In this document: positions 26,232 to 43,799 of the stretch, in pieces
Position numbering within the stretch: position 1 is the stretch's first letter
Layout of the letters: every line of letters starts with the position of its first letter
Assembly (NCBI RefSeq): GCF_018271995.1
Contig: NZ_JAGUCO010000004.1
Location: forward strand, 1 to 64,000
Direction of reading: 5' to 3'
Source of the DNA: Carboxylicivirga linearis
GTDB taxonomy: Bacteria; Bacteroidota; Bacteroidia; Bacteroidales; Marinilabiliaceae
DNA: 64,000 nt
Program-made: the position numbers and the translations under genes
The notes under the pieces: generated by a model
What the model was told of the DNA's origin: nothing
The model's database searches: none
The model's input: only the letters and a program-made list of their open reading frames with translations

Positions 26232-29200
26232 TTACTCCTTCAGCTTTTTTAAATAATCTGAAGGACTGATGCCAAATTCATCTTTAAAACACTGCCTGAA
26301 ATAACCTGTACTGTTAATACCTATTCGGTACATCACCTCTGATATTGTATACTTACCGCTAAGAATTAATTGTTCTGCCACCCTCATTCGAATCTTACGA
26401 ATGTATTCATTCGCTGTCATATCAGTTAATGCCTTAATTTTACGATACAGCGTTGAATGGCTCATATTCATGTGCTGGGCTATTTGAGAGATATTCATTT
26501 CCTCGTCTTCGAGGTTTTCCTCAATAATCATATCCAGCTTCTCCAAAAAGTCTTTATCTAATTTATTGGTTGCCTCTTTAAACAGTTTTTGCTTATCTTC
26601 AATCTTATTAGTATACGAATCAGATAGTTTTTTGCGGGTTTCTAAAATATTTCGCAAACGACTCTTTAACAGACTACTGCTAAATGGCTTGGTAAGATAC
26701 GAATCAGCGCCGGCATCATACCCTTCACTTTTATCTTGTAAGGTATCTTTTGCTGTTAGTAAAATTACCGGTATATGACTGGTGCGAATATCCTGTTTCA
26801 TTTTTTTACACATCTCTATCCCATCCATAACCGGCATCATTATATCACTGATAATAATATCAGGTACTTTTTCGCAAGCCACTTCATATCCTTTAAGTCC
26901 GTTATTAGCCGTGTAAACCTGGTACACATCCGATAAACTATCATAGATATACTCTGTTATATCCTGATTGTCATCAACTACCAGAATCACATCTTTATTG
27001 CCCAATACCTCTTCGTCCTCCAACTGTTCCGTATGAGTCGTAAGAAGTTTTACCCCCGGATAACTATTGTTAGTTAAGAAACGAACCGTAAAAGTGGTTC
27101 CTTTATCTAACTCACTTTTCACATAAATTTCTGCCTGATGCAACTCAACCAGATTTTTTACTAAGGCTAAACCAATTCCTGTTCCACTTATCGCATGCTT
27201 AGTATCTTTTGCCTGATAGTAACGCTCAAAAATATTAGTAAGATTATCTTCTGAAATGCCATAACCCGTATCTGACACCTCTATTTCAGTATAAGCTATG
27301 TCATATTCTTCAAACTGTTTCATTTTCATGCAAACACATCCTTCTAATGTGTATTTAAATGCATTCGACAGAAGATTATCAAGTATGATTCCTACCACTT
27401 CCGGATCATACAATATTTCTTTATTTTCCTTAGGAAGTTCTATTTCAAACTCCACTCTCTTATTCTGATTAAGCTCTTTATATTTTAGTCCCGTTTCATA
27501 TATAAACTGACCTAAATCTCCTTTGACAACAGCTAATTCTCGTTTTTTTGATTCCGTTCTTCTAAACTCAAGAACCTGGTTTATAAGCTGAAGCAATCGA
27601 TTAGCCACCCGATGCATCGAGTTTATTTTTTTGGTTAAGGATTCAGAAAGAGATTGTTCAGCGACCAAATCTTCGAGCGGACCAATAAGCAAAGTCATTG
27701 GAGTGCGTAACTCATGTGCAATATTGGTGAAGAACTTGATTTTTTCTTCATTCAAATCATGTTCCCTCTGCCGAATACTCTTTTCTAATACCAATGCATT
27801 TTCTACATCTACTTTATTTTTATAAAATCTTAATATAAACCATGAGCCTAACACAAACAAAACAAGATAGAGTATTTTAGCCTGCCATGTCTGCCAGTAG
27901 GGCGGTTCAATACTTATAGACATCATCTTTATTTCATCCGTCCATTCTTTGTTATGAAGCCTAACCTTAAGATTAAACTGGTAACTTCCCGGATTGAGGT
28001 TTCGAAAAGTAACGGTATTTTCTTCCTTCATTAAGTACCAATTATTATCGAGTCCAACCATTTGAAACATATAATCGACCTTATCTGTCAAAGAAAAGTC
28101 TGCTACATTAAAACTGATCCTGAATGAGTTTTCATTGTAATTGAGATTAACATTATCATTAAAAGGAAAATCAACAAACTCAGTAAACGTTTCATTGGCT
28201 TTTGAAGGAACCTCAAAACTTGTAATCATCACGTTGGGCAAATCACTGTATCCTAAATCAAGATTTTGATTGAAGAAGGTTGCTCCATTTTGAGTACCAA
28301 AATAGATTGTTCCATCTTTTGATTTATAACAGACCCCATTAATATAGTCACCGGTAGAAATACCATCGCCCATATTGAAATTAACAATCTGATTGCTTTG
28401 AATATTATAATGACTAATTCCATTTAGGGTACTAAACCAAATTTCATGATCACTATTGCCCTCAGCTATAGCTCTTACATCGGTCTCGGCCATACCATCT
28501 TCAAGGCCTATTCGCTTGGTTAAGGTATAATCTTCGAAGTAGAATAAATCATTCTGACTACCTACCCAAATTCTATCTTTAGAGTCACGATATAAATGGT
28601 TGACATTATAAAAGTCATACTGCTGCCCGAAATTATATCGTAACTGAAAGTGAGCATCAAATACACACAGACCTCCTACTGCGGTGCCCACCCATAAATC
28701 ACCATTGGCATCTTCAACCACCGATCGAATGATATTATCGGTTAACGCCGAGTTTTGGGTGGTGTATACGAAATGTTTCTCCGTTTTAATATTGTATTTT
28801 AATAAACCGACATCAGTACTTATCCACAAATTCTTTTTTGAGTCTTCGTAGAAATTGTAAATAGGCACATTTTTAACCTGCGGGAAACTATTTAAGATTG
28901 AAAAACGATTGTGATCCGGCTCAAACTTATAAATAATACCATTTACCGTTCCAATCCAAAAGTCATTGTTGCTATCTTTAAAGATACTTTGCGCTAATAA
29001 TGGTTTATTATTAACAGAGGTTATATCTCTGACTTTCTCTTTTCCGTTATATACGCAAACACCGCCGTCACCATTAGCAATCCAAATATTTGACTGACTC
29101 CCCTCTGCAAAACCAAATACGATTTGATTATTCAAACTATTAGTATTGCCAATAATGGGTAAAAAGCTCAATTTTTTAAAGAAGGATTCTTTAACCGGAA

Positions 29201-30248
29201 TTAGATTAATGCCTCCGACAAAACCACCCAACCACATGTTTCCATGTGCATCCTGAAATATAGTTTGAACCGATAAGCTTGATAAACCATCTTCTGTATC
29301 GGAAGATCCGATGCTTTCAAATTGAATATCCTTAGGATCTTCGAATTGCTTTAAATCAACAATATTAACTCCTCCTCCTTCTGTACCAACCCATAAAACT
29401 GAGTCTTTGGTTTCGATAATGCTCTGAATAAAATTATGGGAGATAGAACCTTTTCTTTGGGCATCATGCTTAAAAACAGTCATTGAATTGGTCAAAGGAT
29501 CAAAAAGTACCAGCCCACTGCGTGTGCCTACCCAAATATTGCCTTGAGAATCCTTAAATATATTTGTGACCGTATTATCTGGTAAAGAATTAGGATTATC
29601 AGCATCATGTTTAAAATTGACAGCCGATTGGGTTTTCAGGTTAATAATACTCATTCCATCATTAACATGTCCCACATAAACACTTTCATCACTTTCATAC
29701 ATTACACACCAATTGTAATTGGATGGCAAACCTTTTATATTCGACTGATTATAATGAGTAAACACCCCTGTTTTTTTGTCAAAATAATCTAAACCGTACT
29801 GATAGGTTGCTAACCACAAATTACCAATGCTATCACATGTTATATCTGTAATACCATCAGCTGCTAAACTATTCTTCTGACCACTGTAGTCATGGGTATA
29901 ATGGGTAAATTCATGAGTTCGGTAATTATAGGCATCCAATCCATTTTTTTCGGTTGCTATCCAAATTACATCATCCTTTTTATCGGCAAACACAACGTTA
30001 AAGATGTTACTTGCTGGTGAATTATCCCCATTTTTTCGGAACACCTTAAATGAATGTCCGTCATAACGATTTAATCCATCTTTGGTAGCGATCCACAATA
30101 TCCCATCATTATCCTGAGTAATGCTCATTACATTATTGTTCGACAGCCCGTCCTTAATACCAATCTTTTTGATATCGTATGCTTTTGCTGAGCCATAAAA
30201 AAGACTCATTCCTACAATCAACAAACAAATTTTTATTGGAATCCTCAT
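26232..30248 (-). CDS. Hybrid two-component system sensor/regulator (HTCS)
   Basis: A 1338-residue single-protein two-component system, the usual controller of polysaccharide use in Bacteroidota. Order: signal peptide (1-23), a long periplasmic sensor of many Reg_prop blades (IWIATEKNGLDAY, NLWISTDVGLLKYN and similar, about 30-700), a Y_Y_Y domain (about 705-785), one membrane helix (ILYLVLFVLGSWFILRF), HisKA with the phosphorylated His845 in NIAHELRTP, a kinase ATPase (NLLSNAFKYT, DTGYGIS, GTGIGLALV), a receiver with Asp1135 in IIISDIMMP, and a C-terminal AraC-type HTH. All key residues are intact. Its ligand would be an oligosaccharide from the target glycan. It probably controls the GH27/GH43 genes beside it through the motif at 30338 and 35648. 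Confidence 0.95.
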   Translation of the reverse strand: MRIPIKICLLIVGMSLFYGSAKAYDIKKIGIKDGLSNNNVMSITQDNDGILWIATKDGLNRYDGHSFKVFRKNGDNSPASNIFNVVFADKKDDVIWIATEKNGLDAYNYRTHEFTHYTHDYSGQKNSLAADGITDITCDSIGNLWLATYQYGLDYFDKKTGVFTHYNQSNIKGLPSNYNWCVMYESDESVYVGHVNDGMSIINLKTQSAVNFKHDADNPNSLPDNTVTNIFKDSQGNIWVGTRSGLVLFDPLTNSMTVFKHDAQRKGSISHNFIQSIIETKDSVLWVGTEGGGVNIVDLKQFEDPKDIQFESIGSSDTEDGLSSLSVQTIFQDAHGNMWLGGFVGGINLIPVKESFFKKLSFLPIIGNTNSLNNQIVFGFAEGSQSNIWIANGDGGVCVYNGKEKVRDITSVNNKPLLAQSIFKDSNNDFWIGTVNGIIYKFEPDHNRFSILNSFPQVKNVPIYNFYEDSKKNLWISTDVGLLKYNIKTEKHFVYTTQNSALTDNIIRSVVEDANGDLWVGTAVGGLCVFDAHFQLRYNFGQQYDFYNVNHLYRDSKDRIWVGSQNDLFYFEDYTLTKRIGLEDGMAETDVRAIAEGNSDHEIWFSTLNGISHYNIQSNQIVNFNMGDGISTGDYINGVCYKSKDGTIYFGTQNGATFFNQNLDLGYSDLPNVMITSFEVPSKANETFTEFVDFPFNDNVNLNYNENSFRISFNVADFSLTDKVDYMFQMVGLDNNWYLMKEENTVTFRNLNPGSYQFNLKVRLHNKEWTDEIKMMSISIEPPYWQTWQAKILYLVLFVLGSWFILRFYKNKVDVENALVLEKSIRQREHDLNEEKIKFFTNIAHELRTPMTLLIGPLEDLVAEQSLSESLTKKINSMHRVANRLLQLINQVLEFRRTESKKRELAVVKGDLGQFIYETGLKYKELNQNKRVEFEIELPKENKEILYDPEVVGIILDNLLSNAFKYTLEGCVCMKMKQFEEYDIAYTEIEVSDTGYGISEDNLTNIFERYYQAKDTKHAISGTGIGLALVKNLVELHQAEIYVKSELDKGTTFTVRFLTNNSYPGVKLLTTHTEQLEDEEVLGNKDVILVVDDNQDITEYIYDSLSDVYQVYTANNGLKGYEVACEKVPDIIISDIMMPVMDGIEMCKKMKQDIRTSHIPVILLTAKDTLQDKSEGYDAGADSYLTKPFSSSLLKSRLRNILETRKKLSDSYTNKIEDKQKLFKEATNKLDKDFLEKLDMIIEENLEDEEMNISQIAQHMNMSHSTLYRKIKALTDMTANEYIRKIRMRVAEQLILSGKYTISEVMYRIGINSTGYFRQCFKDEFGISPSDYLKKLKE

Positions 30249-30337
30249 TTCACCCTAATTCAATATTTACTTAAAAATAATATTAAAAAAAATGAATCTC
30301 GCATCTATAAATACTCTTGCTGAATTTCTGTTTATGT

Positions 30338-30384
30338 TTTGCCGAATAAATGAAAAAGTAATGACATTAATGAATATAAATTTG
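30338..30384 (+). promoter_or_regulatory. Candidate HTCS operator plus -7 box before GH43 gene
   Basis: TTTGCCGAATAAATGAAAAA (30338-30357) is followed 19 bases later by the -7 box TAAATTTG (30377-30384). The same arrangement, 18 of 20 bases identical and with the identical 39-base offset, occurs at 35648. The motif takes the place of the normal -33 element, as for an activator-dependent promoter. Leader to the ATG is about 80 bases. Confidence 0.65.
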
Positions 30385-30470
30385 TAATCGTTAATGAACC
30401 AATCATGTGTTAAAACCAGCTCAAACTTGTAATCATCAATCACTAATTAAAGCTAAAAACAATAATAAAA

Positions 30471-32126
30471 ATGAAACAAATCATTGCTTTTTTACTGGTA
30501 ATCTGCAGCATTACTGTACATGCGAAGGATAAAAACCTGGTACTTCGTTATACTTTTTATTCTTCTAATGCTGATGAAATCATAAAAGATGATACCGGAA
30601 ATGGCTATAATGGCGAATTAAAAAATCATGCATACATCGATCAGATGGGTGATTTTTCCATACTTAATTTGGGTTACTCAAACGGCTATGTTGATATGGG
30701 TGAAAAAGTGGGTACTTTAATTAATTCGTTAAAAGATTTTTCAATATCGTCGTACGTATGTATTAATGCTGAGGCCAACCTTAATGACAATGGACATTTC
30801 ATCTGGTCGTTTTCAAATAGCAACGATATTATGAAAGACCAGAATGGTTGTATGTTTTTTTCTGCCCGAACACAGGGTTTTTCTATAAGCAAAACAGATT
30901 ACAGAGCTGAATCTGGAATCAGTGTTAATTCGCCGTTACAAAAAAAGATTTGGAAGCATGTGGTTTACACTCAAACCGGAAATACTGCCAAAATATATGT
31001 AGATGGAGCAGTGATAGCAGATGGAGAAATTACAATTAATCCGAAGGACCTGGGCAAAACCTTATTTAATTTTATTGGACGATCTCCTTATGGCGCTGAT
31101 GCCTATTTCAAAGGTCTGATTTCTGATTTTAGAATATACAAAAAAGCTCTTTCTGAAAATGAGATTGCTCCACTTCATGCTGATTTAGAAGTTATGAACA
31201 ATGCCTATGCCGATTATTTATTAAAACCGGTTCAGCATGTAACGAACGGTAATCCTTTATTTTCTCACAAGCACACTGCTGATCCGGCTGCTTTTGTTTA
31301 TGACGATACATTTTATATTTATGCAGGTCAGGATGTTGGTGACGGTTCGTACTATAATATGCCAAACTGGGTGGTTTTCTCATCCAAAGATTTAGAAACA
31401 TGGGAAGAACATGCTGTACCCTTATCGGTTAGTGATTTTTCCTGGGCAAAAGGAAATACTGCTTGGGCAGCACAGGTGATTGAACGCAACGGCAAATTTT
31501 ACTGGTATATCTCTACCGAACATGCTTCGATACATGGTAAATCAATTGGTGTTGCAGTATCCGATTCACCAACTGGTCCTTTTGTAGATGCCCGCGGGAG
31601 TGCATTAATCACAAATGATATGACTACCGAATATACAGGCATCTCGTGGGACGACATTGATCCAACAGTTTGGATTGATGATGATGGTCAGGCTTATATT
31701 TTCTGGGGTAATACACAATGTTACTATGCAAAATTAAAGGATAATATGATTGAATTGGATAGTGAGATTATGCCTGTTACATTACCTAATTTCACCGAAG
31801 CTCCATGGATTCACAAAAGAGGTGATTGGTATTACTTATCATACGCTTCATTGTGGCCTGAAAAAACATGCTATGCAATGAGTAAAGACATCAATGGTCC
31901 ATGGGAATACAAAGGTATTTTAAATGAATTGGCAGGAAACTGTAACACCAACCATCAAGCCATTGTTGAATTCAAAAACAATTGGTATTTTGTATACCAT
32001 AACGGTGGATTATACAACGGTGGTAGTTACCTTCGATCGGTTTGTATTGATTATTTGTTTTACAACACCGACCATACCATTAAAAAAATTCAAATGACGT
32101 CGGAAGGCGTTAGTAAAGTGGAATAA
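30471..32126 (+). CDS. LamG-GH43 family glycosidase
   Basis: A 551-residue exported enzyme (signal peptide MKQIIAFLLVICSITVHA). Residues 22-235 form a concanavalin A-like (LamG) domain (LRYTFYSSNADEIIKDDTGNGYNG), likely a sugar-binding module. The GH43 five-bladed propeller follows: general base Asp in HTADPAAFVYDD, pKa modulator Asp in DDIDPTVWIDDDG, and acid Glu in FTEAPWIHKRGDWYYLSYA. GH43 enzymes mostly release arabinofuranose, xylose or galactose. First gene after the divergent HTCS promoter, behind a candidate operator, so it is a likely HTCS target. Followed by a long hairpin. Confidence 0.93.
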   Translation: MKQIIAFLLVICSITVHAKDKNLVLRYTFYSSNADEIIKDDTGNGYNGELKNHAYIDQMGDFSILNLGYSNGYVDMGEKVGTLINSLKDFSISSYVCINAEANLNDNGHFIWSFSNSNDIMKDQNGCMFFSARTQGFSISKTDYRAESGISVNSPLQKKIWKHVVYTQTGNTAKIYVDGAVIADGEITINPKDLGKTLFNFIGRSPYGADAYFKGLISDFRIYKKALSENEIAPLHADLEVMNNAYADYLLKPVQHVTNGNPLFSHKHTADPAAFVYDDTFYIYAGQDVGDGSYYNMPNWVVFSSKDLETWEEHAVPLSVSDFSWAKGNTAWAAQVIERNGKFYWYISTEHASIHGKSIGVAVSDSPTGPFVDARGSALITNDMTTEYTGISWDDIDPTVWIDDDGQAYIFWGNTQCYYAKLKDNMIELDSEIMPVTLPNFTEAPWIHKRGDWYYLSYASLWPEKTCYAMSKDINGPWEYKGILNELAGNCNTNHQAIVEFKNNWYFVYHNGGLYNGGSYLRSVCIDYLFYNTDHTIKKIQMTSEGVSKVE

Positions 32127-32149
32127 CCACTATATTTAATATTATTTGA

Positions 32150-32190
32150 TTTACTGCACTTTTAATTAAATATTTTAAAAGTGCAGTAAA
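32150..32190 (+). terminator. Perfect 16-bp stem hairpin after the GH43 gene
   Basis: TTTACTGCACTTTTAA (32150-32165) and its exact complement at 32175-32190 enclose a nine-base loop. No T run follows, so it may be a processing site, a weak terminator or a mobile remnant. The remaining 460 bases up to 32651 are AT-rich with no gene and no clear TAnnTTTG box; a TTTTGACAAGTT occurs near 32230, also present before the third GH27 gene. Confidence 0.5.
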
Positions 32191-32651
32191 CAATCGAAAG
32201 AAGCTACCCTTGCCTTAAAACCTTTTGTTTTTGACAAGTTACAGCAGTTACTCATAGAACCTACTGCTTGAAATTGAGCTGATTCCGTTCAAATTAAGCT
32301 TGAGCATAAACAATTTCTCGAACATATTATTATATAACATACACATATGTTCAATATCTACCTCAACTCAAATACCTTATAAACCACATTAGCTATGCAT
32401 TGCATAGTATTTTCATACTATTAATAACATAATTACTTTCTCCAAAATACATTATTAATTTTATAATATTGTATTAATCAATCATCTACAACACACTAAA
32501 CCTGACTATATAAATAGAACCTATAGAATCAGCTTTTTAATCATGAGTCTGATAATTTCTTTTCAGCAAGCTTGAATTAAAATGGTATAACAAATCAAAA
32601 ATAAAATCTATTCAAACACTAGAATCTTTATAATTCAAAAAATCCAAGTCT

Positions 32652-35489
32652 ATGAAAACAAAATTATTATCATTTATCACTTTATTATTTGTCTGTCATG
32701 GGCTTTTGGCTCAAGATGGAAATGAATTACCCTTTCATAAATGGGCTCTTACGCCTCCAATGGGTTGGAATAGCTGGGACTGTTTTGGTCCATCTGTTGT
32801 TGAAGATGAAGTAAAAGCCAATGCCGACTATATGGCTGCTAATCTTAAAGAAACAGGTTGGGAATACATAGTGGTTGATATTCGCTGGTATGTTGATAAT
32901 CAAACAACCGGACATTACAATGCGTATGATCAATCAGACTTTATCATTGATGAATACGGGCGCTATATGCCTTCACCAACCCGATTCCCTTCAGCCGCAG
33001 ACGGTGCCGGGTTTAAACCTTTAGCTGATTATATACATAGCCTGGGATTAAAGTTCGGGATTCATATAATGCGGGGAGTTCCAAAAGAAGCCGTTTCCAA
33101 CAATATGCCCATTAAAGGAACATCATATAAGGCATCCGATATTTACTCAACAGCTTATGAGTGTACCTGGCTACAGGATAATTACACCATAGATGCAAGT
33201 AAACCAGGAGCCCAGGAATACTACAATTCAATCTTTGATTTGTATGCCGAGTGGGGTGTTGATTATATTAAAATTGATGACCTCTCACGCCCCTATCACA
33301 GCAATGAAATAGAAATGATACGCAAAGGTATTGATCAAACAGGCCGTGCAATGGTATTAAGCATGTCGCCCGGAGCTACTCCGCTCACAGAACATGACCA
33401 TGCCCGTACACATGCCAACCTTTGGCGCACTATAGATGATTTTTGGGATAACTGGGCACAGTTGAACTACTCATTTGGTGTTTGTGCCGATTGGGCTCCT
33501 TACATCACACCGGGTGCCTACCCCGATGCCGACATGCTTCCATTAGGTAAATTTATTAGAGGTGAAAGAGCCAGCAACCGATATACGAACTTCACCGAAG
33601 ATGAACAATACACCTTAATGAGTTTATGGGCCATGTTTAAATCACCATTGATGTTTGGCGGCAATATGCCTGATAACGATCAATTCACATTAGACTTGAT
33701 CACCAACGAAGAAATGCTGTATATCAATCAGCATTCGCGTAATAATCAGGAATGGTCAAACGAAAATGGTATTATCACCTGGACAGCGGAAGATCCTGCT
33801 AATGGTGATTTATTTGTTTCTTTGTTCAACAACGGTGGCGATGGATTTGTAAGAACCCAAAATCTTTTATACCGAAGTGGCACTGTTTCACGATTAACAG
33901 ATGGCTTTGGGGTTGATATTGACATTAGTATACCTGAAGGGTCGGACCAACTCTATTTAATTGTCAACGATGGCGGTGATGGATACGCCTGTGATCATGC
34001 TGATTGGATAGATCCTATTGTTGAGTTATCTGATGGTAGCATTGTTGCCTTAACCGATTTGGATTGGGAATTTGCATCTGCAGGATGGGGAACTATAACT
34101 AAAAACAAAAGTATTTCTGGTGGCAATTTAAATATAAAAGGCACAGAGTACGATACCGGAATTGGAACTCATGCTCAATCAATTATATTATTCGGCATCC
34201 CGGAAAATACAGTTCGTTTTCAGGCTTTTGCAGGTCTTGACATTGGCGGAACCAGTCAAACAGGAGGAGCCACTGTAGAATTTATGATTGCCAATGAAGA
34301 TCCCACACCTCGCGAAGTAGAAGTTAATAATGCCATTGCCAATACCGGTCGCATGAGTCGCACATTAACTCCTGAAGGAAAAAACATTGAAGCCGATATA
34401 ACAGGTGCTGAAAAATTGTACCTTGTGGTGACCGATGCCGGGGACAATTTTAATTACGACCACGCCGATTGGATTAATCCAACCATCATAAAAGAAAATG
34501 GCGAAACTCTGTTATTAACTGATCTCGATTGGGTAAGTGCAACAAGCGGTTGGGCCAGTGTGGCAAAAAACACCAGTCTGGATGGAAATCCTTTAACTGT
34601 TAATGGTGTAACATATGATAAAGGATTTGGTGTAAACGCTTATTCAATAATAGAATTTAATCTGCCGGAGGGATATGTAAGCTTTGAAGCTTTTTGCGGA
34701 GTTGATGACGAGGTTAAGAATGCACCCGAGGGAGTAACTGTTGAATTTATGGTATTTACGCAAGATCCGTCCATCCTTTCATCCATTCCTGTTACTCTCG
34801 ATTTAAATGAATTTGGTTATTCAGGGGCTTGTATAGTTAGAGATATTTGGGGGAAATCAGATGTTGGTGCGTTTTCCGGTGATGAATTTATTCCTGAAAT
34901 CAGAACGCATGGAGTTGGCTTGTACCGCATCTCGGCAACTGACAGAAGTAACGATATAAGTGTTAGTTTATCAGCAACTGAAAGTGAGATTCAATCTGGA
35001 AGTTCGATCACTTTTACTGGTAGCATTTCAAATACCGGCCAGACAAATGACATTCCTACTGGTTGGGTACAAATTTATCAAGGTGATTCAATTGCCGCTT
35101 GCATCGAACTATCAGAAAACGGAGTGGTTCAATTTGAGACATCAGATTTAAAACCCGGCAACTATACTTTTAAAGCCAGCTATAGTGGCGATGCCGTTTT
35201 TAACACTAAAGAATCGAATCAAATAACGGTAACTGTAGTTGATAATTCAACTGCCATTGATGATAACACCAATGACGAGGATACAATTTATATAAGTAAT
35301 GAAGGTGGAGCCAGATATCTTTGTGGAACAAGTAGTGGAGATGCTGTTTCAATTTATAGCTTAAACGGAAAACTAATCCAATCCTTTATTGCCAGTTCAG
35401 ACAAAGAGCAGGTTCTCCTAAAAAATGGTATTTACCTATTTCGTGTCACGACTGATTTAAGAGTTTATGTTCTTAAAACTGCTATATAA
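32652..35489 (+). CDS. GH27 glycosidase with two NPCBM-like domains, Ig-like domain and secretion tail
   Basis: A 945-residue exported enzyme (signal peptide MKTKLLSFITLLFVCHGLLAQ). The GH27 domain covers about residues 25-400: PPMGWNSWDCFG, catalytic nucleophile Asp209 in YIKIDD, and Arg259/Asp263 (LWRTIDD) as the acid/base site. Two NPCBM-like domains follow (about 425-570 and 580-765, with VEFMIANEDPTPREVEV and VEFMVFTQDPS at their ends), then an Ig-like domain (about 770-865, GSSITFTGSISNTGQ) and a C-terminal domain of about 75 residues ending VYVLKTAI that resembles a type IX sorting tail. It is nearly identical in the first 765 residues to the following gene, from which it differs by the Ig and tail. 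Confidence 0.92.
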   Translation: MKTKLLSFITLLFVCHGLLAQDGNELPFHKWALTPPMGWNSWDCFGPSVVEDEVKANADYMAANLKETGWEYIVVDIRWYVDNQTTGHYNAYDQSDFIIDEYGRYMPSPTRFPSAADGAGFKPLADYIHSLGLKFGIHIMRGVPKEAVSNNMPIKGTSYKASDIYSTAYECTWLQDNYTIDASKPGAQEYYNSIFDLYAEWGVDYIKIDDLSRPYHSNEIEMIRKGIDQTGRAMVLSMSPGATPLTEHDHARTHANLWRTIDDFWDNWAQLNYSFGVCADWAPYITPGAYPDADMLPLGKFIRGERASNRYTNFTEDEQYTLMSLWAMFKSPLMFGGNMPDNDQFTLDLITNEEMLYINQHSRNNQEWSNENGIITWTAEDPANGDLFVSLFNNGGDGFVRTQNLLYRSGTVSRLTDGFGVDIDISIPEGSDQLYLIVNDGGDGYACDHADWIDPIVELSDGSIVALTDLDWEFASAGWGTITKNKSISGGNLNIKGTEYDTGIGTHAQSIILFGIPENTVRFQAFAGLDIGGTSQTGGATVEFMIANEDPTPREVEVNNAIANTGRMSRTLTPEGKNIEADITGAEKLYLVVTDAGDNFNYDHADWINPTIIKENGETLLLTDLDWVSATSGWASVAKNTSLDGNPLTVNGVTYDKGFGVNAYSIIEFNLPEGYVSFEAFCGVDDEVKNAPEGVTVEFMVFTQDPSILSSIPVTLDLNEFGYSGACIVRDIWGKSDVGAFSGDEFIPEIRTHGVGLYRISATDRSNDISVSLSATESEIQSGSSITFTGSISNTGQTNDIPTGWVQIYQGDSIAACIELSENGVVQFETSDLKPGNYTFKASYSGDAVFNTKESNQITVTVVDNSTAIDDNTNDEDTIYISNEGGARYLCGTSSGDAVSIYSLNGKLIQSFIASSDKEQVLLKNGIYLFRVTTDLRVYVLKTAI

Positions 35490-35511
35490 TCGGCTTTAAA
35501 TAGTAAATTTT

Positions 35512-35545
35512 AAGGTTGTGCCATGTTTCTGGCACAACCTTTTTT
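35512..35545 (+). terminator. Strong intrinsic terminator after the second GH27 gene
   Basis: AAGGTTGTGCC and GGCACAACCTT form a perfect stem around an eight-base loop, followed by a T run to 35545. Confidence 0.92.
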
Positions 35546-35647
35546 CATTATTAAAACCTCATCCACAACCCATTAACCACATATCACCATAAACTTTTAC
35601 AAAACGAACACAATCAACGTATAATTTTGACAAGTTTCAAATCACTA

Positions 35648-35694
35648 TTTGCCGAATTATTGAAAAAATATAAATCTATTTCACCGTAGCTTTG
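35648..35694 (+). promoter_or_regulatory. Candidate HTCS operator plus -7 box before third GH27 gene
   Basis: TTTGCCGAATTATTGAAAAA (35648-35667) lies 19 bases before the -7 box TAGCTTTG (35687-35694), exactly the spacing seen at 30338. Leader to the ATG at 35840 is about 140 bases. Part of the 350-base gap also holds the terminator at 35512 and a TTTTGACAAGTT near 35625. Confidence 0.65.
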
Positions 35695-35839: not shown

Positions 35840-38140
35840 ATGAAATCCAGATTTGTAATTTTTGTTTCCCTTTTAGCATTGCTACAGGGAGTAATAGCTC
35901 AAACCACAAATGAATTACCTTTTCATAAATGGGCGCTCACACCTCCAATGGGATGGAATAGCTGGGACTGTTTTGGTCCTTCGGTAGTTGAAGATGAAGT
36001 AAAAGCCAATGCCGATTACATGGCTGCTAACCTGAAAGAATCAGGTTGGGAATATATTGTGGTTGACATTCGCTGGTACGTCGATAATCAAACAACCGGT
36101 CATTATAATGCATACGATAAATCAGACTTTATCATTGATGAATACGGGCGCTATATGCCATCACCTACTCGATTTCCTTCGGCTGCGAATGGTGCAGGTT
36201 TTAAACCATTAGCTGATTATGTGCATAGCCTGGGATTAAAGTTCGGAATTCATATTATGCGTGGCGTACCAAAGGAGGCTGTTTTCAACAACATGCCCAT
36301 AAAAGGAAGTTCTTACAAAGCATCTGATATTTATTCAACTGCCTATGAATGCACCTGGTTACAGGATAATTACACTATTGAATCAGATAAACCCGGAGCT
36401 CAGTACTATTACAATTCAATCTTTGATTTATATGCTGAGTGGGGAGTTGATTACATTAAAATTGATGACCTTTCCCGCCCTTATCATGACAAAGAAATTG
36501 AAATGATACGCAAAGGAATTGATCAAACAGGTCGTCCGATGGTACTAAGCATGTCGCCGGGTGCAACTCCTTTGTCAGAGCACGACCATGCCCGAACACA
36601 TGCCAACCTTTGGCGTACCATTGATGACTTTTGGGATAACTGGGCACAGTTAAACTACTCTTTTGGTGTTTGTGCCGATTGGGCACCTTATATCACGCCC
36701 GGTGCTTTTCCAGATGCCGATATGCTACCTTTAGGTAAATTTATTCGTGGAGAAAGGGCTCACGATCGCTACACCAATTTTACCAAAGATGAACAATATA
36801 CCTTAATGAGTTTATGGGCCATGTTTAAATCTCCGTTAATGTTTGGAGGCAACATGCCTGATAATGATCAATTCACCTTAGACTTAATAACCAATGATGA
36901 GATGTTATACATCAATCAGCACTCTCACAAAAATCAAGAATGGTCGAACGAAGGTGGTATTATCACATGGACAGCGGAAGATCCTGCTAATGGTGATTTA
37001 TTTGTTGCTTTGTTTAATAATGGTGGCGATGGCTTTGTTAAAACCCAGAACCTATTATATCGAAGTGGTACCGTTTCGCGCTTAACCGATGGCTTTGGTG
37101 AAGATATTGACATTGAACTTCCTGAAGGAGCAGATCAATTATTTCTAATTGTCAACGATGGTGGTGATGGTCATGCCTGCGACCACGCTAACTGGATTAA
37201 CCCAACGGTTGAATTAGCTGATGGGAGCACCGTTGAACTAACCGATTTAAACTGGGAATATGCAACTTCAGGCTGGGGTAATGTAAGCAAAAATAAAAGT
37301 ATCTCCGGTGGTAAACTTAATGTCAAAGGTACCGAATACGAGAAAGGAATTGGTACGCATTCTCAATCAATTGTTTTATTTAAACTACCTGAAAACAGTG
37401 TTCGGTTTAAAACATTTGCCGGCCTGGATTTAGGTGGAACTAATCAAACTGGTGGTGCAACTGTAGAGTTTATGATTGCCACGGAAGATCCAACACCTCG
37501 CGAAGTGGAAGTAAATAACGCCATTGCCAACACAGGACGTATCAGCCGTACATTATTTCCTGAAGGTAAAAAAATTGAAGCTGATATTACAGGTGCTAAA
37601 AAATTATATTTAGTGTTGACCGATGCCGGTGATGATCTTACATTCGATCATGCCGACTGGATTAATCCAACCATCATCAATAAAAAAGGCAAATCATTAC
37701 CACTTACCAAGCTCGATTGGGCGAAAGCTACTTCAGGCTGGGGTAATGTTTCAAAAAATAAGAGTTTAGATGGAAATCCATTATCAGTTAATGGCAAGAC
37801 TTACAAAAATGGTTTTGGTGTAAACGCATATTCAATCATTGAATTTGATTTACCTAAAGGGTATACCAAATTTGAAGCTTTTTGCGGCATTGATGATGAA
37901 GTCTTAAACGTAGAAAAAGGAGCTACGGTTGAGTTTATGGTATTCACCGAAGATCCATCTGTGCTTTCATCTATTCCGGTGACATTGGATTTAAATAAAT
38001 TCGGATTTTCAGTACCTTGTACTATCAGAGATGTTTGGAAAAAATCAGACATTGGAACTTATAGAGGTGATGAGTTTACACCAGAAATCAGGACTCATGG
38101 AGTAGGATTATATAGAATTTCACCTGTTAAGAAAAAATAA
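35840..38140 (+). CDS. GH27 glycosidase with two NPCBM-like domains, paralogue
   Basis: A 766-residue exported enzyme, a tandem duplicate of the preceding gene: the catalytic domain and the two NPCBM-like domains are nearly the same in order and sequence, including PPMGWNSWDCFGPSVVEDEVKANADYM and the nucleophile Asp209. It stops at GLYRISPVKKK, just where the Ig-like domain and sorting tail begin in its neighbour, so it may stay in the periplasm while the neighbour is exported to the surface. It begins behind a candidate HTCS operator and is followed after 24 bases by the LamG-GH43 giant, with which it is probably co-transcribed. Confidence 0.92.
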   Translation: MKSRFVIFVSLLALLQGVIAQTTNELPFHKWALTPPMGWNSWDCFGPSVVEDEVKANADYMAANLKESGWEYIVVDIRWYVDNQTTGHYNAYDKSDFIIDEYGRYMPSPTRFPSAANGAGFKPLADYVHSLGLKFGIHIMRGVPKEAVFNNMPIKGSSYKASDIYSTAYECTWLQDNYTIESDKPGAQYYYNSIFDLYAEWGVDYIKIDDLSRPYHDKEIEMIRKGIDQTGRPMVLSMSPGATPLSEHDHARTHANLWRTIDDFWDNWAQLNYSFGVCADWAPYITPGAFPDADMLPLGKFIRGERAHDRYTNFTKDEQYTLMSLWAMFKSPLMFGGNMPDNDQFTLDLITNDEMLYINQHSHKNQEWSNEGGIITWTAEDPANGDLFVALFNNGGDGFVKTQNLLYRSGTVSRLTDGFGEDIDIELPEGADQLFLIVNDGGDGHACDHANWINPTVELADGSTVELTDLNWEYATSGWGNVSKNKSISGGKLNVKGTEYEKGIGTHSQSIVLFKLPENSVRFKTFAGLDLGGTNQTGGATVEFMIATEDPTPREVEVNNAIANTGRISRTLFPEGKKIEADITGAKKLYLVLTDAGDDLTFDHADWINPTIINKKGKSLPLTKLDWAKATSGWGNVSKNKSLDGNPLSVNGKTYKNGFGVNAYSIIEFDLPKGYTKFEAFCGIDDEVLNVEKGATVEFMVFTEDPSVLSSIPVTLDLNKFGFSVPCTIRDVWKKSDIGTYRGDEFTPEIRTHGVGLYRISPVKKK

Positions 38141-38164
38141 ATACAACAATAATTATATATACTT

Positions 38165-41100
38165 ATGAACCGTAAAATGGTAAATAACTTAAAGTGTATT
38201 TTTCTGGCCACTCTTTTTTGGAGTGTTGGAGCAAGTACATTGTTTAAGTTGAACGCACAAAACCTGAAAGTGCATTATGCACTTTCTCAAGATCCAAACG
38301 GCAGTACCACTGTTATTGATGAATCAGGAAACGGATTTAATGGAAGCCTGGTTAATGGAGCTGCTATTTCTAAATACGATGGTCTATCGGTTATTGATTT
38401 AAAAACATCAAACGGATATGTAAACTTGGGTTCTTCATTCGGTGAAGCAGTTGAATCGTTGAACGATTTTAGTATCGCAACCAAAATATTCATACCAAGC
38501 ACTACCAATATTAGTGGAAATGGAAATTTCGTTTGGTCTTTTGCTAACTCCAACGATATTGCAAACGATGCAAAAGGATGCCTTTTCTTTAGTGCCAAAA
38601 ACACTTACTATTCTATCACTCCAAGCAACTGGACCAGCGAATCGGGTGTTAATAATTCATCTGCCATAAGTAAAGGAAGCTGGCAAACCATTGTTTATGT
38701 TCAGCGCAATGGCATAGGCAAGATTTACATCAATGGTAATCTTGTAAAGAGTAATGAAGTTTCGATGACACCTTCAGAGTTGGGAGCTACTCCTTATAAC
38801 TATTTAGGTCGCTCGTGTTACAATGGTGATGCTTACTTGAATAATGCTAAAATTGCTGATTTCAGAGTGTATGATAGCCCGCTGAGTACTGATCAGGTTG
38901 AAGAGTTATCAGGTATCTCAAATGAATTTTATCCAACTACCACTCTGGCCAGATTCGATTTTAAGTCGACTCAGGATGCAGACGGTAATTATATCGGCAC
39001 TTTGCAGAACGGTGCTGAAATCATCAGCTATGGCGATGGATCTGTTTTGAGCCTTGGCGATAACGATGGTTATTTTAATTTAAGTAATGATTTTGGAAGT
39101 ATCGTATCAACTTTAGATAGTTTTACAATTTCAACAAACTTATTAATTCCATCTTCGGTTGAGATCTCGAGCAACGGTAACTTTGTGTGGTGCTTTGCTA
39201 ACTCAGATAATATGGCTTCTGATGCCAATGGAAACCTGTTTTTCAGAGCTTCACAAACACGATATTCTGCCTCTAAAACTCACTGGACATCAGAGTCCTC
39301 GATTTCAGCCAACAAAGAGCTTCCAAAGGGAGAGTGGATAAACATCACTTACACCCAGAGATATAACAGTGGCCGTATTTATATAAATGGCGAGTTAGTA
39401 ACATCTGGCAGCATGCCAATTAATCCTAAAGATTTAGGTGCAACAGCTTATAACTTTTTAGGCCGGTCGTGTTACGCTGGTGATGCCTACCTTAAAAGCA
39501 CATACTTTGATGATTTTACCATTTATCAGGGAGTATTAAAAGAATCAGACATATGGACCTTATGCGAGAGCTTAACTGCATTGAATGATGTTAACGATTT
39601 AATCACTTTAAATGCAGCTATCAAAAGCCTAACCATAGCTGATGCTGATCAGGTAAGATCGAGTCTTATTTTACCTACAACAGCTGGTAATGGAGTATCT
39701 GTTACCTGGTCATCAAACAATACAGATGTGGTTAGTAACACTGGTGTTGTAACCCGCCCTGCTGCAGGAGCTGATGCTGTTAAAGTAACGATGACAGCCA
39801 CATTGAGTTACAATAATGTTTCGGACACAAAAGAAATTGAAGTTACCATTTTGCCACAATACAGCAATGCTGAAAGTGTTGCTTTCGATATCGAGAACCT
39901 TAGCCTTTCTGGCAATATTGATAACATTAAAACAGCCATCAAACTACCAATCAAAACCAACGAAGGTTCAATGGTTGTTTGGGAGTCTGATTCACCGGAG
40001 TTCTTGAGCAATGTAGGTAAAGTAGTTCAACTATCACCTATTGGCGAAGGTAAAAAGAAAGTTACCTTAACGGCAACTGTTATTAAAGGTGATATATCTG
40101 TTTCTAAAACATTTGAAGTATATGTAGCTGAGAAAGAAGATCGTGCTGCTTACCTTTTCTCATATTTTACAGGTAACCATACTGATGGTGAACAAATTCG
40201 TTTTGCTGTAAGTAACAACGGAATTGATTACACACCGCTAAATAATGGCCAAAAAATTATTAGTTCCGATACCATTTCATTGAAAGGTGGGGTTCGTGAT
40301 CCACATATTTTAAGAGGTCCAAACGGATATTTCTATATGGTGGTTACCGACATGAAATCGGCTGAAGGCTGGAGCAGTAACCGCGGTATGGTACTATTAC
40401 GATCTGATGACCTGGTAAACTGGTCGCATTCAACCGTTCACTTCCCGGGTAAATGGCCTGAAAAGTGGGGTAATGTATTACGCGTTTGGGCTCCTCAGAC
40501 TATTTATGATGCCGAAGCGGACAAAATAATGGTTTACTTCTCTTTATATTCAGGACAGTCAAATGCGCCATACGATAGAATCTACTATTGCTATGCCAAC
40601 GAAGATTTTACTGATTTGGAAGGTGAACCCAAAATTCTTTTCGATCGCGGTACCGCTACTATTGATGGCGACATTGTATTTAATGATGCTGATGACTTAT
40701 ATTATATGTTCTTCAAGAACGAATCACTAGGTGGAATCAGCCAGGTAACAACTAAATCGTTAACTGAAGCCGAAGGCAAAGCACCCAGTTCACAGTGGAG
40801 CGAACCAACGCCTCCTAAGCAACAAACTGATAAAGCTGTTGAAGGTTCTGGTGTTTTCCAGCTAATCAATTCGGATGAATGGGTTTTGATGTACGATTGT
40901 TATGCCAATGGTCATTATCAGTTCTGTACTTCAACCGATTTGCAAAACTTTACATTTAAACAAGATAACTACAATATGAATGCTCGTCATGGAACAACCA
41001 TCTCACTTACTCAGGAAGAGTTGGAAAGATTGGTTGCTAAATGGCCAAGTGAAGCATTATCCAACGAACCAGAGGGAGCACGCAGCATTAAGGTTAAAAA

Positions 41101-42418
41101 CAACGGATGTAAAATCAACACAACTGATAAAACCATAGATATTGCGGTTTACTATGGAACAAATATCAGTAGTTTCAACCCAGAGTTGTATGCTTCACCA
41201 GGTTCGGTGGTTAGTCCCGAAGGACCTCAGGATTTCAGTCATGGAGGCGTTTCTTATTCATTCACTCAAAATGGGAACACAGTAACATACACAGTTAATG
41301 TAGCTGTTGAAGGCAACCCTGTATTACCCGATTTTCATGCCGATCCGGATGTTTTGTATTCCGAAAAAACGGGTCGATTCTACATCTATCCTACTACTGA
41401 TGGATATCCTGGATGGGGAGGTTACAGCTTTGATGTATTCTCATCTCCAGACCTGGTACAATGGACCAACGAAGGAACTATCATTGATATGAGTACCGAT
41501 CAGGTGAGCTGGGCAACAGGTAATGCATGGGCTCCCTGTATCGAAGAAAAGAAAATGGCCGATGGTTCATATAAGTATTTCTTCTATTACAGTGGCCATG
41601 CTGGTAGTAAAAAAGAGATTGGTGTAGCGGTTGCCAACGATCCTTCCGGTCCGTTTATTGATTCAGGTTCACCAATGCTATCGAATCTTCCTGCTGGCAT
41701 CGGCGGTCAGTTGATCGATGGTGATGTATTTACCGATCCTGTTTCGGGTAAAAGTTATTTCTATTATGGAAATGGATTTGCGGCAGTGGCCGAACTAAAC
41801 GATGATATGACATCGATTGATGAAAGCACGGTTACTGTTATCACTCCACAAGGAGGTTCTTTAAGTGACTATGCATTCCGTGAAGCTATTTATGTATTTT
41901 ATCGCGATGGATTGTATTATTTCCTATGGTCGGTGGATGATACCGGATCGCCCAATTACCATGTGGCCTATGGCACTTCCACATCACCAATGGGCCCGAT
42001 TGAAGTAGCTGACGAACCTATTGTAATTATCCAGGATGCCGATAAAGAACTATATGGAACCGCTCATAATTCAGTGCTTCAGATACCAGGCAGAGACGAA
42101 TGGTACATTGTGTACCACCGTATTAATGCCAATTATTTGAATAACGACCCGGGTGTACACCGTGAAGTATGTATTGATAAGTTGGAATTTAACGAAGATG
42201 GAACCATCAAACAAGTCGTTCCTACTCGTGAAGGAATTGAACCTGTTATATTGGATCACCTTTCTACGGGTATGACTGACACTGTAAAACCGGGTAAACG
42301 CAAAGCTAAAGGCAAAGTGGTTTCGCAGGAAACATATGATCTTTCAGGTAAAAAGTTCAGAAAAAAAAAAGAAAGAAAGACATCTACATCATCAAAGAAA
42401 CATATGAAAACGGAGTAG
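38165..42418 (+). CDS. Multidomain LamG2-GH43-GH43 glycosidase (frameshifted C-terminus)
   Basis: A 1417-residue exported protein. Order: signal peptide (1-32), LamG domain 1 (about 35-240), LamG domain 2 (about 255-460), two atrophied Ig-like domains (about 475-665), GH43 module 1 (about 665-960; Asp in GGVRDPHIL, Asp in IDGDIVFND, Glu in AVEGSGVFQ), a linker (about 990-1060), GH43 module 2 (about 1065-1370; Asp in HADPDVLY, Asp in IDGDVFTD, Glu in FREAIYVFYRDG). Both GH43 sites are complete. The frame ends after an A10 tract (42361-42370) with a basic, atypical tail. One extra A would read on to 42447 and give a tail with DIYIIKETYENGVVKTY, like a type IX sorting domain. Annotated to the visible stop. 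Confidence 0.88.
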   Translation: MNRKMVNNLKCIFLATLFWSVGASTLFKLNAQNLKVHYALSQDPNGSTTVIDESGNGFNGSLVNGAAISKYDGLSVIDLKTSNGYVNLGSSFGEAVESLNDFSIATKIFIPSTTNISGNGNFVWSFANSNDIANDAKGCLFFSAKNTYYSITPSNWTSESGVNNSSAISKGSWQTIVYVQRNGIGKIYINGNLVKSNEVSMTPSELGATPYNYLGRSCYNGDAYLNNAKIADFRVYDSPLSTDQVEELSGISNEFYPTTTLARFDFKSTQDADGNYIGTLQNGAEIISYGDGSVLSLGDNDGYFNLSNDFGSIVSTLDSFTISTNLLIPSSVEISSNGNFVWCFANSDNMASDANGNLFFRASQTRYSASKTHWTSESSISANKELPKGEWINITYTQRYNSGRIYINGELVTSGSMPINPKDLGATAYNFLGRSCYAGDAYLKSTYFDDFTIYQGVLKESDIWTLCESLTALNDVNDLITLNAAIKSLTIADADQVRSSLILPTTAGNGVSVTWSSNNTDVVSNTGVVTRPAAGADAVKVTMTATLSYNNVSDTKEIEVTILPQYSNAESVAFDIENLSLSGNIDNIKTAIKLPIKTNEGSMVVWESDSPEFLSNVGKVVQLSPIGEGKKKVTLTATVIKGDISVSKTFEVYVAEKEDRAAYLFSYFTGNHTDGEQIRFAVSNNGIDYTPLNNGQKIISSDTISLKGGVRDPHILRGPNGYFYMVVTDMKSAEGWSSNRGMVLLRSDDLVNWSHSTVHFPGKWPEKWGNVLRVWAPQTIYDAEADKIMVYFSLYSGQSNAPYDRIYYCYANEDFTDLEGEPKILFDRGTATIDGDIVFNDADDLYYMFFKNESLGGISQVTTKSLTEAEGKAPSSQWSEPTPPKQQTDKAVEGSGVFQLINSDEWVLMYDCYANGHYQFCTSTDLQNFTFKQDNYNMNARHGTTISLTQEELERLVAKWPSEALSNEPEGARSIKVKNNGCKINTTDKTIDIAVYYGTNISSFNPELYASPGSVVSPEGPQDFSHGGVSYSFTQNGNTVTYTVNVAVEGNPVLPDFHADPDVLYSEKTGRFYIYPTTDGYPGWGGYSFDVFSSPDLVQWTNEGTIIDMSTDQVSWATGNAWAPCIEEKKMADGSYKYFFYYSGHAGSKKEIGVAVANDPSGPFIDSGSPMLSNLPAGIGGQLIDGDVFTDPVSGKSYFYYGNGFAAVAELNDDMTSIDESTVTVITPQGGSLSDYAFREAIYVFYRDGLYYFLWSVDDTGSPNYHVAYGTSTSPMGPIEVADEPIVIIQDADKELYGTAHNSVLQIPGRDEWYIVYHRINANYLNNDPGVHREVCIDKLEFNEDGTIKQVVPTREGIEPVILDHLSTGMTDTVKPGKRKAKGKVVSQETYDLSGKKFRKKKERKTSTSSKKHMKTE

Positions 42419-43031: not shown

Positions 43032-43799
43032 ATGTTTAAAAAATCATCTAATCCATACTACCATATTTTATATTGGATATTTGTAATTTTTATTCTCACC
43101 CTATTTTTTGGACGCTCGTGGGGTAACAATATAGCATCGTTCTTTTTTGTAAGCATGTTGCTTCCCATCACACTGGGCACTTCCTATTTTTTCAATTATG
43201 TACTGGTAAGCCTTTTTTACCTGAAAAAAAGTTATTGGAGGTTTGGCCTGTACAGTTTTTATCTAATGGTGGTTTCGTTATATCTCCAGTCGATTGTTAT
43301 CATGTTTGCGTTTATTTACCTGGGAAATTTCAATTATCAAAATCTTCCACCCAATGCTTCAGACACCTTGCTTTTAGCTGTAGTAATGTATCTATTGGTA
43401 TTTCTGGGTTCATTTTTATTGATGACGCGCCAGATTAAAGAACGAGAAAACTTAATTCAAAAATTATTAATCGATCAGGAAAAAAATAAGGTTGCCAGCC
43501 TTCAACTAAGGTCGAACCGAAAAACAATCCAGATCCCATACAATAGTATTATTTTCATCGAAAGCATGGCTGATTACATTAAGGTACACACAATAGCAGA
43601 TACCGTTACCAGCAAAGAAAAAATAAGCAAATTAGCCGAGAGACTTCCTGAGCAGTTCATGCGTATTCATCGGTCGTTTATTGTGAATAAATCGCGCATC
43701 AAAGAAGTTTCGTACAACGAACTAACCGTTGATAACGTCACTTTAAATATTGGACGTAGTTATCAAAAAACAGTTCGCGAAGAACTAAAAGACAATTAA
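43032..43799 (+). CDS. Membrane-bound LytTR DNA-binding regulator
   Basis: A 255-residue protein with four N-terminal helices (about residues 10-140) and a C-terminal LytTR domain (about 160-255) with IQIPYNSIIFIESMADYIKVHT and FMRIHRSFIVNKSRIKEVS. It lacks a receiver domain, so it is probably controlled through its membrane part rather than by phosphorylation. Typical targets of LytTR regulators are direct repeats in promoters; the divergent ExbB-like gene or marC downstream are possible targets, but none was identified. Confidence 0.85.
   Translation: MFKKSSNPYYHILYWIFVIFILTLFFGRSWGNNIASFFFVSMLLPITLGTSYFFNYVLVSLFYLKKSYWRFGLYSFYLMVVSLYLQSIVIMFAFIYLGNFNYQNLPPNASDTLLLAVVMYLLVFLGSFLLMTRQIKERENLIQKLLIDQEKNKVASLQLRSNRKTIQIPYNSIIFIESMADYIKVHTIADTVTSKEKISKLAERLPEQFMRIHRSFIVNKSRIKEVSYNELTVDNVTLNIGRSYQKTVREELKDN

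Follow-up and report, generated by a model that had tools for sequence, protein, structure and literature searches.

The window analysed here is a stretch of 64,000 nucleotides from Carboxylicivirga linearis. It contains a gene for a hybrid two-component system (HTCS) protein, divergent from a GH43 gene and close to several GH27 genes. The protein has the domains of an HTCS regulator, each scoring above its Pfam cut-off and all in one chain. The sensor part (residues 20-787) matches the solved structure 3v9f, and residues 1087-1337 match the solved HTCS chain 12aw_A. The features discussed below are listed in order along the window; G007 is a second genome of the family, used for comparison.

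26232..30248, minus strand: HTCS gene, 1338 aa, the proposed binder, with Reg_prop propeller, Y_Y_Y, HisKA, HATPase, receiver and AraC-type HTH
30316..30337, plus strand: predicted operator 1, distal half-site CTTGCTGAATTTCTGTTTATGT, 22 bases upstream of the proximal half
30338..30357, plus strand: predicted operator 1, proximal half-site TTTGCCGAATAAATGAAAAA, the first 20-mer of the initial annotation
30377..30384, plus strand: -7 promoter box TAAATTTG of the GH43 gene, 19 bases past operator 1
30471..32126, plus strand: target 1, a LamG and GH43 enzyme, 551 aa; closest solved chain Gly43N beta-xylosidase/alpha-L-arabinofuranosidase
35512..35541, plus strand: terminator-like hairpin, 12 bp perfect stem followed by TTTT, before operator 2
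35626..35647, plus strand: predicted operator 2, distal half-site TTTGACAAGTTTCAAATCACTA, 22 bases upstream of the proximal half
35648..35667, plus strand: predicted operator 2, proximal half-site TTTGCCGAATTATTGAAAAA, the second 20-mer of the initial annotation
35687..35694, plus strand: -7 promoter box TAGCTTTG of the third GH27 gene
35840..38140, plus strand: target 2, a GH27 and NPCBM enzyme (third GH27), 766 aa; closest solved chain Abp beta-L-arabinopyranosidase
38165..42418, plus strand: target 2 unit, continued, a GH43 enzyme, 1417 aa; G007 orthologue 80% identical

The two 20-mers, TTTGCCGAATAAATGAAAAA and TTTGCCGAATTATTGAAAAA, are present where the initial annotation placed them, the first between the HTCS and GH43 genes and the second before the GH27-GH43 pair. 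They agree at 18 of 20 bases, and each is followed by a gap of 19 bases (N19) and a TAnnTTTG box, again as described. The consensus for the primary sigma factor of Bacteroidetes has TAnnTTTG at -7 and TTTG near -33 (PMC7366714). On the plus strand of 30249-30470, TAAATTTG is the sole TAnnTTTG. The box TAGCTTTG is probably also the -7 box for the GH43 gene that follows the third GH27 gene after an intergenic gap of 24 bases. The hairpin at 35512-35541 stands between operator 2 and the preceding gene, and from this hairpin and the short gap 35840-42418 is probably one unit. In G007, the same operator is found directly before the orthologue (80%) of the 1417-residue GH43 protein.

Some other repeats were seen in these regions. 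A second TAnnTTTG, TAATTTTG, at 35622-35629 overlaps the start of the operator 2 distal half-site and may be an extra promoter or a chance match. The GH43 leader has an 18-base direct repeat (83%; 30378-30395 and 30423-30440) that consists of the box and the bases following it. After the GH43 gene, at 32150-32190, there is a perfect inverted repeat with 16-base arms, TTTACTGCACTTTTAA and TTAAAAGTGCAGTAAA, and 9 bases between them; it has no T run behind it on the plus strand and one match in the window.

The enzymes give some indication of the substrate. Of the two GH43 proteins, one is nearest to 3qz4, named endo-1,4-beta-xylanase D, and the other to Gly43N, and for the third GH27 protein the putative alpha-N-acetylgalactosaminidase 3cc1 is a close second behind Abp. 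By analogy with these chains, an arabinose-bearing plant glycan is a fair guess as the substrate, and no more than that. The second and third GH27 genes (32652-35489 and 35840-38140) are tandem paralogues, 84% identical, and the operator is present only at the second of the pair; G007 has one match at this level. No susC/susD-type match was found among the 16 window proteins scanned, of 51 ORFs listed.

Architecture and rarity of the predicted operators

The 20-mer proposed as the operator in the initial annotation is a real site, but it is only the promoter-proximal half of a 42-base direct repeat. When the two window sites are aligned with two G007 sites, a conserved block, TTGnynAnTTTC, lies directly upstream of the proximal half, and this block is a degenerate copy of TTGCCGAATWAWTGAA in the proximal half, 22 bases off. 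Summed over the four sites, self-match is best at offset -22 out of 90 offsets (34 of 64; mean 18.1, sd 5.6), with offsets +11 and +8 as runners-up at 31 each. Taken singly, operator 1 has its best offset at -22 (10 of 16), and operator 2 matches itself at 9 of 16 positions at 22, with offsets 11 and 32 tying; at the site G7_2, offset -22 is outside the five best. The half-sites within each operator are only moderately alike. The 22-base period agrees with the tandem direct repeat expected of an HTCS operator, in which the half-sites are about 21 bp apart.

The better conserved half is the promoter-proximal one. Any two of the four sites agree at 17-19 of 20 bases in the proximal half and at 10-20 of 22 in the distal half, compared with 4-9 of 23 in the flank above the element and 2-11 of 19 in the spacer. 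The distal halves of operators 1 and 2 are identical to each other at 10 of 22 positions. Against a G007 site, operator 1 agrees at 16/22 in the distal half and 19/20 in the proximal half (flank 9/23, spacer 2/19), and operator 2 at 20/22 and 18/20, respectively (flank 8/23, spacer 9/19). With a leave-one-out matrix made from the other three sites, the distal halves in the window rank 64 (operator 1) and 2 (operator 2) of 127956 positions, and those in locus L054 rank 2 and 2 of 39956. This pattern of conservation, together with the ranks, suggests that selection acts on the 42-base direct repeat as a whole and on its fixed distance from the box.

The proximal half begins 39 bases before TAnnTTTG and so covers the place of the -33 TTTG. 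The location of the site at the -33 position therefore stands: the stretch from 16 to 26 bases upstream of the box starts TGAAAAA or TGAATAA in the four closest sites and has no TTTG. The half-sites, 22 bases or about two helix turns apart, are on the same face of the DNA.

The site is rare. The 20-mer, with W at the two differing places, occurs at two places in the window with up to three mismatches, and these are the two operators; 100 shuffles of the window gave a mean of 0.14 and none reached two, and the mean fell to 0.01 once N19 and box were added to the 20-mer. In the 6.05 Mb genome, the pattern TTTGCCGAATnnnTGAAAAA is found with 0-1 mismatch only at the two operators, with no third exact copy, and with two mismatches at 6 further places. 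At up to three mismatches there are 94 matches to TTTGCCGAATnnnTGAAAAA in all, against 62 for a reversed control pattern, implying that the loose matches are background. When the motif was searched for in the genome together with N19 and TAnnTTTG, a single extra match was obtained, at three mismatches.

A matrix for the 42-base element, built from the four close sites, gave scores of 52 and 54 for the two operators and a best other score in the window of 16.5 (14268, minus strand). The initial annotation had reported no match before the other GH27 genes, and the matrix agrees: the best score before the second GH27 gene (32120-32660) is -4.5, and the best before the first are -8.2 and -11.6 in the two intervals scanned. 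There is also no TAnnTTnG box on the plus strand of 32127-32651, before the second GH27 gene; with neither site nor box, the control of this gene (32652) is not accounted for by the HTCS operator. The HTCS strand of the divergent region has no TAnnTTnG box, and thus autoregulation of the HTCS is without support.

Occurrence with the HTCS in related genomes

The half-site, N19 and box were found as perfect matches in 2 of 71 genomes of the family, the window genome (G000) and G007, with two in each. An HTCS at least 75% identical is present in the same two genomes only, the next being 59% (71 genomes, with 8 candidates per genome scored). The other 43 of the 47 pattern matches have 2-3 mismatches; matches occur in 29 genomes in all, and the reversed control gave 17. 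Five loci carry GH27 relatives (59-70%) without a close HTCS orthologue, these being in G019, G048, G039 and G050 (two loci). None of the five has the site in the fetched flanks scanned from these 4 genomes, the best matrix score being 5.8 against 52-56 at the operators. For the 75% orthologue, the operator is conserved with the HTCS and absent without it.

G007 is the closest of the relatives that keep the HTCS, and at its locus the HTCS gene is divergent from a GH2 gene, which is followed by a GH27 gene. The same 42-base element precedes two enzyme units in G007, with one copy ahead of the GH2 gene and one ahead of the large GH43 gene; both are followed by N19 and TAGTTTTG, and the bases around the element have drifted.

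More distant orthologues of the HTCS are found in G030 (59%), Maribellus sediminis (55%) and Maribellus sp. CM-23 (56%), compared with 75% in G007. The HTH stretch NMSHSTLYRKIKA is shared unaltered by the window, G007, G030 and M. sediminis, and CM-23 differs from it by one change. A second stretch, ISEVMYRIGINSTGYFRQCFKDE, is identical in the window and G007 and altered in the other orthologues, in step with the drift of the half-sites. In G030, where the divergent gene encodes a LamG/CBM protein, the region has TTTGATTATTTT and TTTGACTGATTT at offset 22, then N19 and TATTTTTG. The CM-23 candidate pairs ATTGACTGATTT with AATGACGAATCA at offset 22, ahead of N19 and the box TAGTTTTA. In M. sediminis there is a similar repeat, with the box-like TAGATTTA one base further off. 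Matrix scores of these candidates are low (M. sediminis -3.3, CM-23 1.3, G030 1.9), and each is the best of its divergent interval, not of the whole locus. The expectation that the motif stands before the orthologues' genes wherever the HTCS is kept thus holds in G007, with N19 and box, and in part for these three, whose diverged candidates keep the form with other letters. Two more M. sediminis candidates, before other genes of the cluster, have the top matrix scores of the locus (7.0 and 6.2); the product of one of these genes matches the window GH43 at 76% across 293 residues.

The matrix favours like halves, being built from the four close sites. A motif-blind scan of the divergent regions of 5 orthologues, working from their boxes, removes this bias. 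With TAnnTTTG, to which the two Maribellus sites contribute nothing, the top of 3075 cells is distance 38, offset 22 (34; mean 18.8, sd 3.4), and this cell is still top when G007 is left out (26; mean 14.7, sd 2.7). With the relaxed box TAnnTTT[GA], chosen after the M. sediminis and CM-23 boxes were seen, the top is distance 39-40, offset 22 (45; mean 24.1, sd 3.8). The form of the site stays beside the HTCS even as the neighbouring gene differs, this being GH43 in the window, GH2 in G007 and LamG/CBM in G030. Relatives of the HTCS at about 35-41% identity (L056-L061) have no recognisable copy of the operator letters and are not counted as support.

Identity of the binding protein

We consider it very likely, from comparison of the sequences, that both elements are operators of the neighbouring HTCS. 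The perfect sites and a close HTCS orthologue coincide, in 2 of 71 genomes for both, which favours the HTCS as the binder. The proposal of the initial annotation that the HTCS binds here gains from the comparative tests, the co-occurrence, the position beside the HTCS gene and the direct-repeat form.

A LytTR-type membrane regulator is encoded nearby (43032-43799), and because this class binds tandem direct repeats upstream of promoters, the operators might belong to it. Its gene lies 0.6 kb past the target unit, and in G007 the ORF that follows the HTCS gene is its counterpart (76% identical); the LytTR protein AgrA binds a pair of direct repeats (PMC4227749). The proximal repeats of AgrA are, however, centred near -60 (PMC4227749), whereas the proximal half in the window overlaps -33. 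In addition, the G030 genome, whose HTCS is accompanied by a candidate repeat (22-base period, N19, box), gave no LytTR match at E 1e-30, so there the site does not go together with a LytTR regulator, and the flanks fetched for the two Maribellus loci showed no LytTR either. Ownership by the LytTR regulator is therefore very unlikely. The N-terminal part of the LytTR protein, as of that at 2677-3453 of L054, looks membrane-bound, and the window genome has a second match (56%) elsewhere.

It is even harder to regard the 20-mer as the upstream element of a promoter for an alternative (ECF-type) sigma factor, with N19 as the -35/-10 spacing. The spacing is indeed exactly equal in the four closest sites, but the downstream element in all four is TAnnTTTG, the ordinary element of the primary sigma factor (PMC7366714) and not a non-housekeeping one. 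Conservation also extends to the distal half, 22 bases further upstream, for which a sigma factor has no need, and the perfect element is found only with a close HTCS orthologue. Least probable of all, and in our view scarcely credible, is that the promoters are alike because one was recently copied from the other, with no common regulator. The 84% identity of the second and third GH27 genes, which are paralogues, would suit such a copy, but the promoters that match belong to the GH43 gene and to only one of this pair. Beyond the element, the window promoters match at only 8/23 and 6/19, and the pairing of promoters recurs in G007 with similar drift; this pattern of drift largely contradicts a recent copy.

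Operators of this kind are already known as HTCS operators from a 2013 prediction (PMC3878776), and it is well supported at the level of sequence that those in the window are a new example. For 16 HTCSs of Bacteroides thetaiotaomicron, the predicted operators were direct repeats in tandem, of 21 bp on average (Ravcheev et al. 2013, PMC3878776). As in that organism, the half-sites are in tandem and separated by about two helix turns (a mean of 21 bp in that study, 22 in the window), stand before glycan-enzyme genes adjoining the HTCS gene, and are conserved in orthologues (PMC3878776). This is however a different HTCS in another genome, and the likeness described here is one of architecture. 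The earlier study chose HTCSs beside susC/susD (PMC3878776), whereas the window has none among the 16 proteins scanned; its text, as excerpted here, gives no fixed distance to the -7 box. EMSAs have been published for HTCS receiver-AraC proteins on promoters with predicted sites (PMC11253607). The proteins BT4124-RR and BT4663-RR, on the bt4114 and bt4662 promoters (PMC11253607), are of the same domain class as the window HTCS; their sites are backed by EMSA, whereas the window operators are predicted from sequence. Compared with a primary-sigma promoter (PMC7366714), the window promoters keep the -7 box and have the proximal half-site in place of the -33 TTTG.

This position of the proximal half would suit an activator that stands in for the -33 contact. 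In the mechanism we propose, a plant-glycan oligosaccharide, perhaps with L-arabinose, judged from the enzymes, would bind the HTCS propeller, and His-Asp phosphotransfer would then free the AraC-type domain. Two AraC domains would occupy the tandem half-sites, with the proximal one touching RNA polymerase in place of the -33 contact, and the GH43 gene (30471) and the GH27-GH43 unit (35840-42418) would be switched on together.

Spacing in HTCS promoters

HTCS promoters may share one grammar whatever the letters of their half-sites, with a phasing of 21-22 bases, the last half-site about 38-40 bases before TAnnTTTG in place of -33, and sometimes arrays of 3-4 half-sites upstream. We put the chances of this at about even. 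The upstream regions of 92 HTCS genes (90 from the family and 2 from Maribellus; 64 after merging alike regions) were used with coding sequence masked, and for each TAnnTTTG the 14-mer similarity was summed at every distance and repeat offset. Among the 14 top cells for the 64 regions, 11 are at offset 21 and distance 34-44, and three are at offset 9. In the 34-45 band, offset 21 has z 4.8, with 0 of 200 local shuffles (box positions fixed) as high, and z 4.7 when the window locus is left out. In 34 control promoters the same offset and band gave z 0.0; these controls were taken from HTCS loci and may include true HTCS targets. For other families of the order (33 HTCS regions fetched, 32 long enough), offset 21 ranks 3 of 41 with z 1.6, and 8 of 200 shuffles were as high.

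Strong repeats (at least 10/14, distance 36-45, offsets 21/22) occur in 5 of the 32 regions from other families, compared with 0-2 for other offset pairs, in 5 of 64 in the family, compared with at most 3, and in 2 of 34 controls, tied for the highest pair there. In a masked test, offset 21 gave repeats scoring at least 11 in 14 of 64 HTCS regions, where the next offset gave 7, and in 3 of 34 controls, where another offset reached 5. The spacing rule therefore has good support within the family, and there is only a hint of it beyond, both judged from sequence. The family mode is 21, compared with the 22-base period of the window operators.

Two earlier forms of the analysis were set aside. An unmasked repeat-offset test was confounded, since offset 21 was raised in the controls as well (8.54, the other offsets averaging 7.01), probably from codon periodicity. 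A first shuffle test gave no excess in any of the three sets; its shuffling created new boxes, and it was judged faulty post hoc. A sigma-70 scan is unsuited to Bacteroidota and was used for terminators only. By eye, the HTCS upstream regions of L075 (G050) and L048 (G044) have 3-4 half-sites phased at about 20-22 bases, the last again 37-39 bases before the box.

Among the regulators of glycan use in Bacteroides, HTCSs form a major class (PMC11253607). The outcome here is a precise predicted operator of 42 bases and a predicted regulon of two promoters, for an HTCS near which none of the 16 proteins scanned is of the susC/susD type. To our knowledge, laboratory tests of the operator exist for few HTCSs. 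The constant distance between the proximal half-site and the -7 box is possibly a more general feature, and our literature search found no paper that states such a distance for HTCS sites. Should the spacing rule hold, the operators of many uncharacterised HTCSs would become predictable, and if the wider grammar is true, they could be read from each HTCS's own promoter, with no need for an alignment of orthologues.
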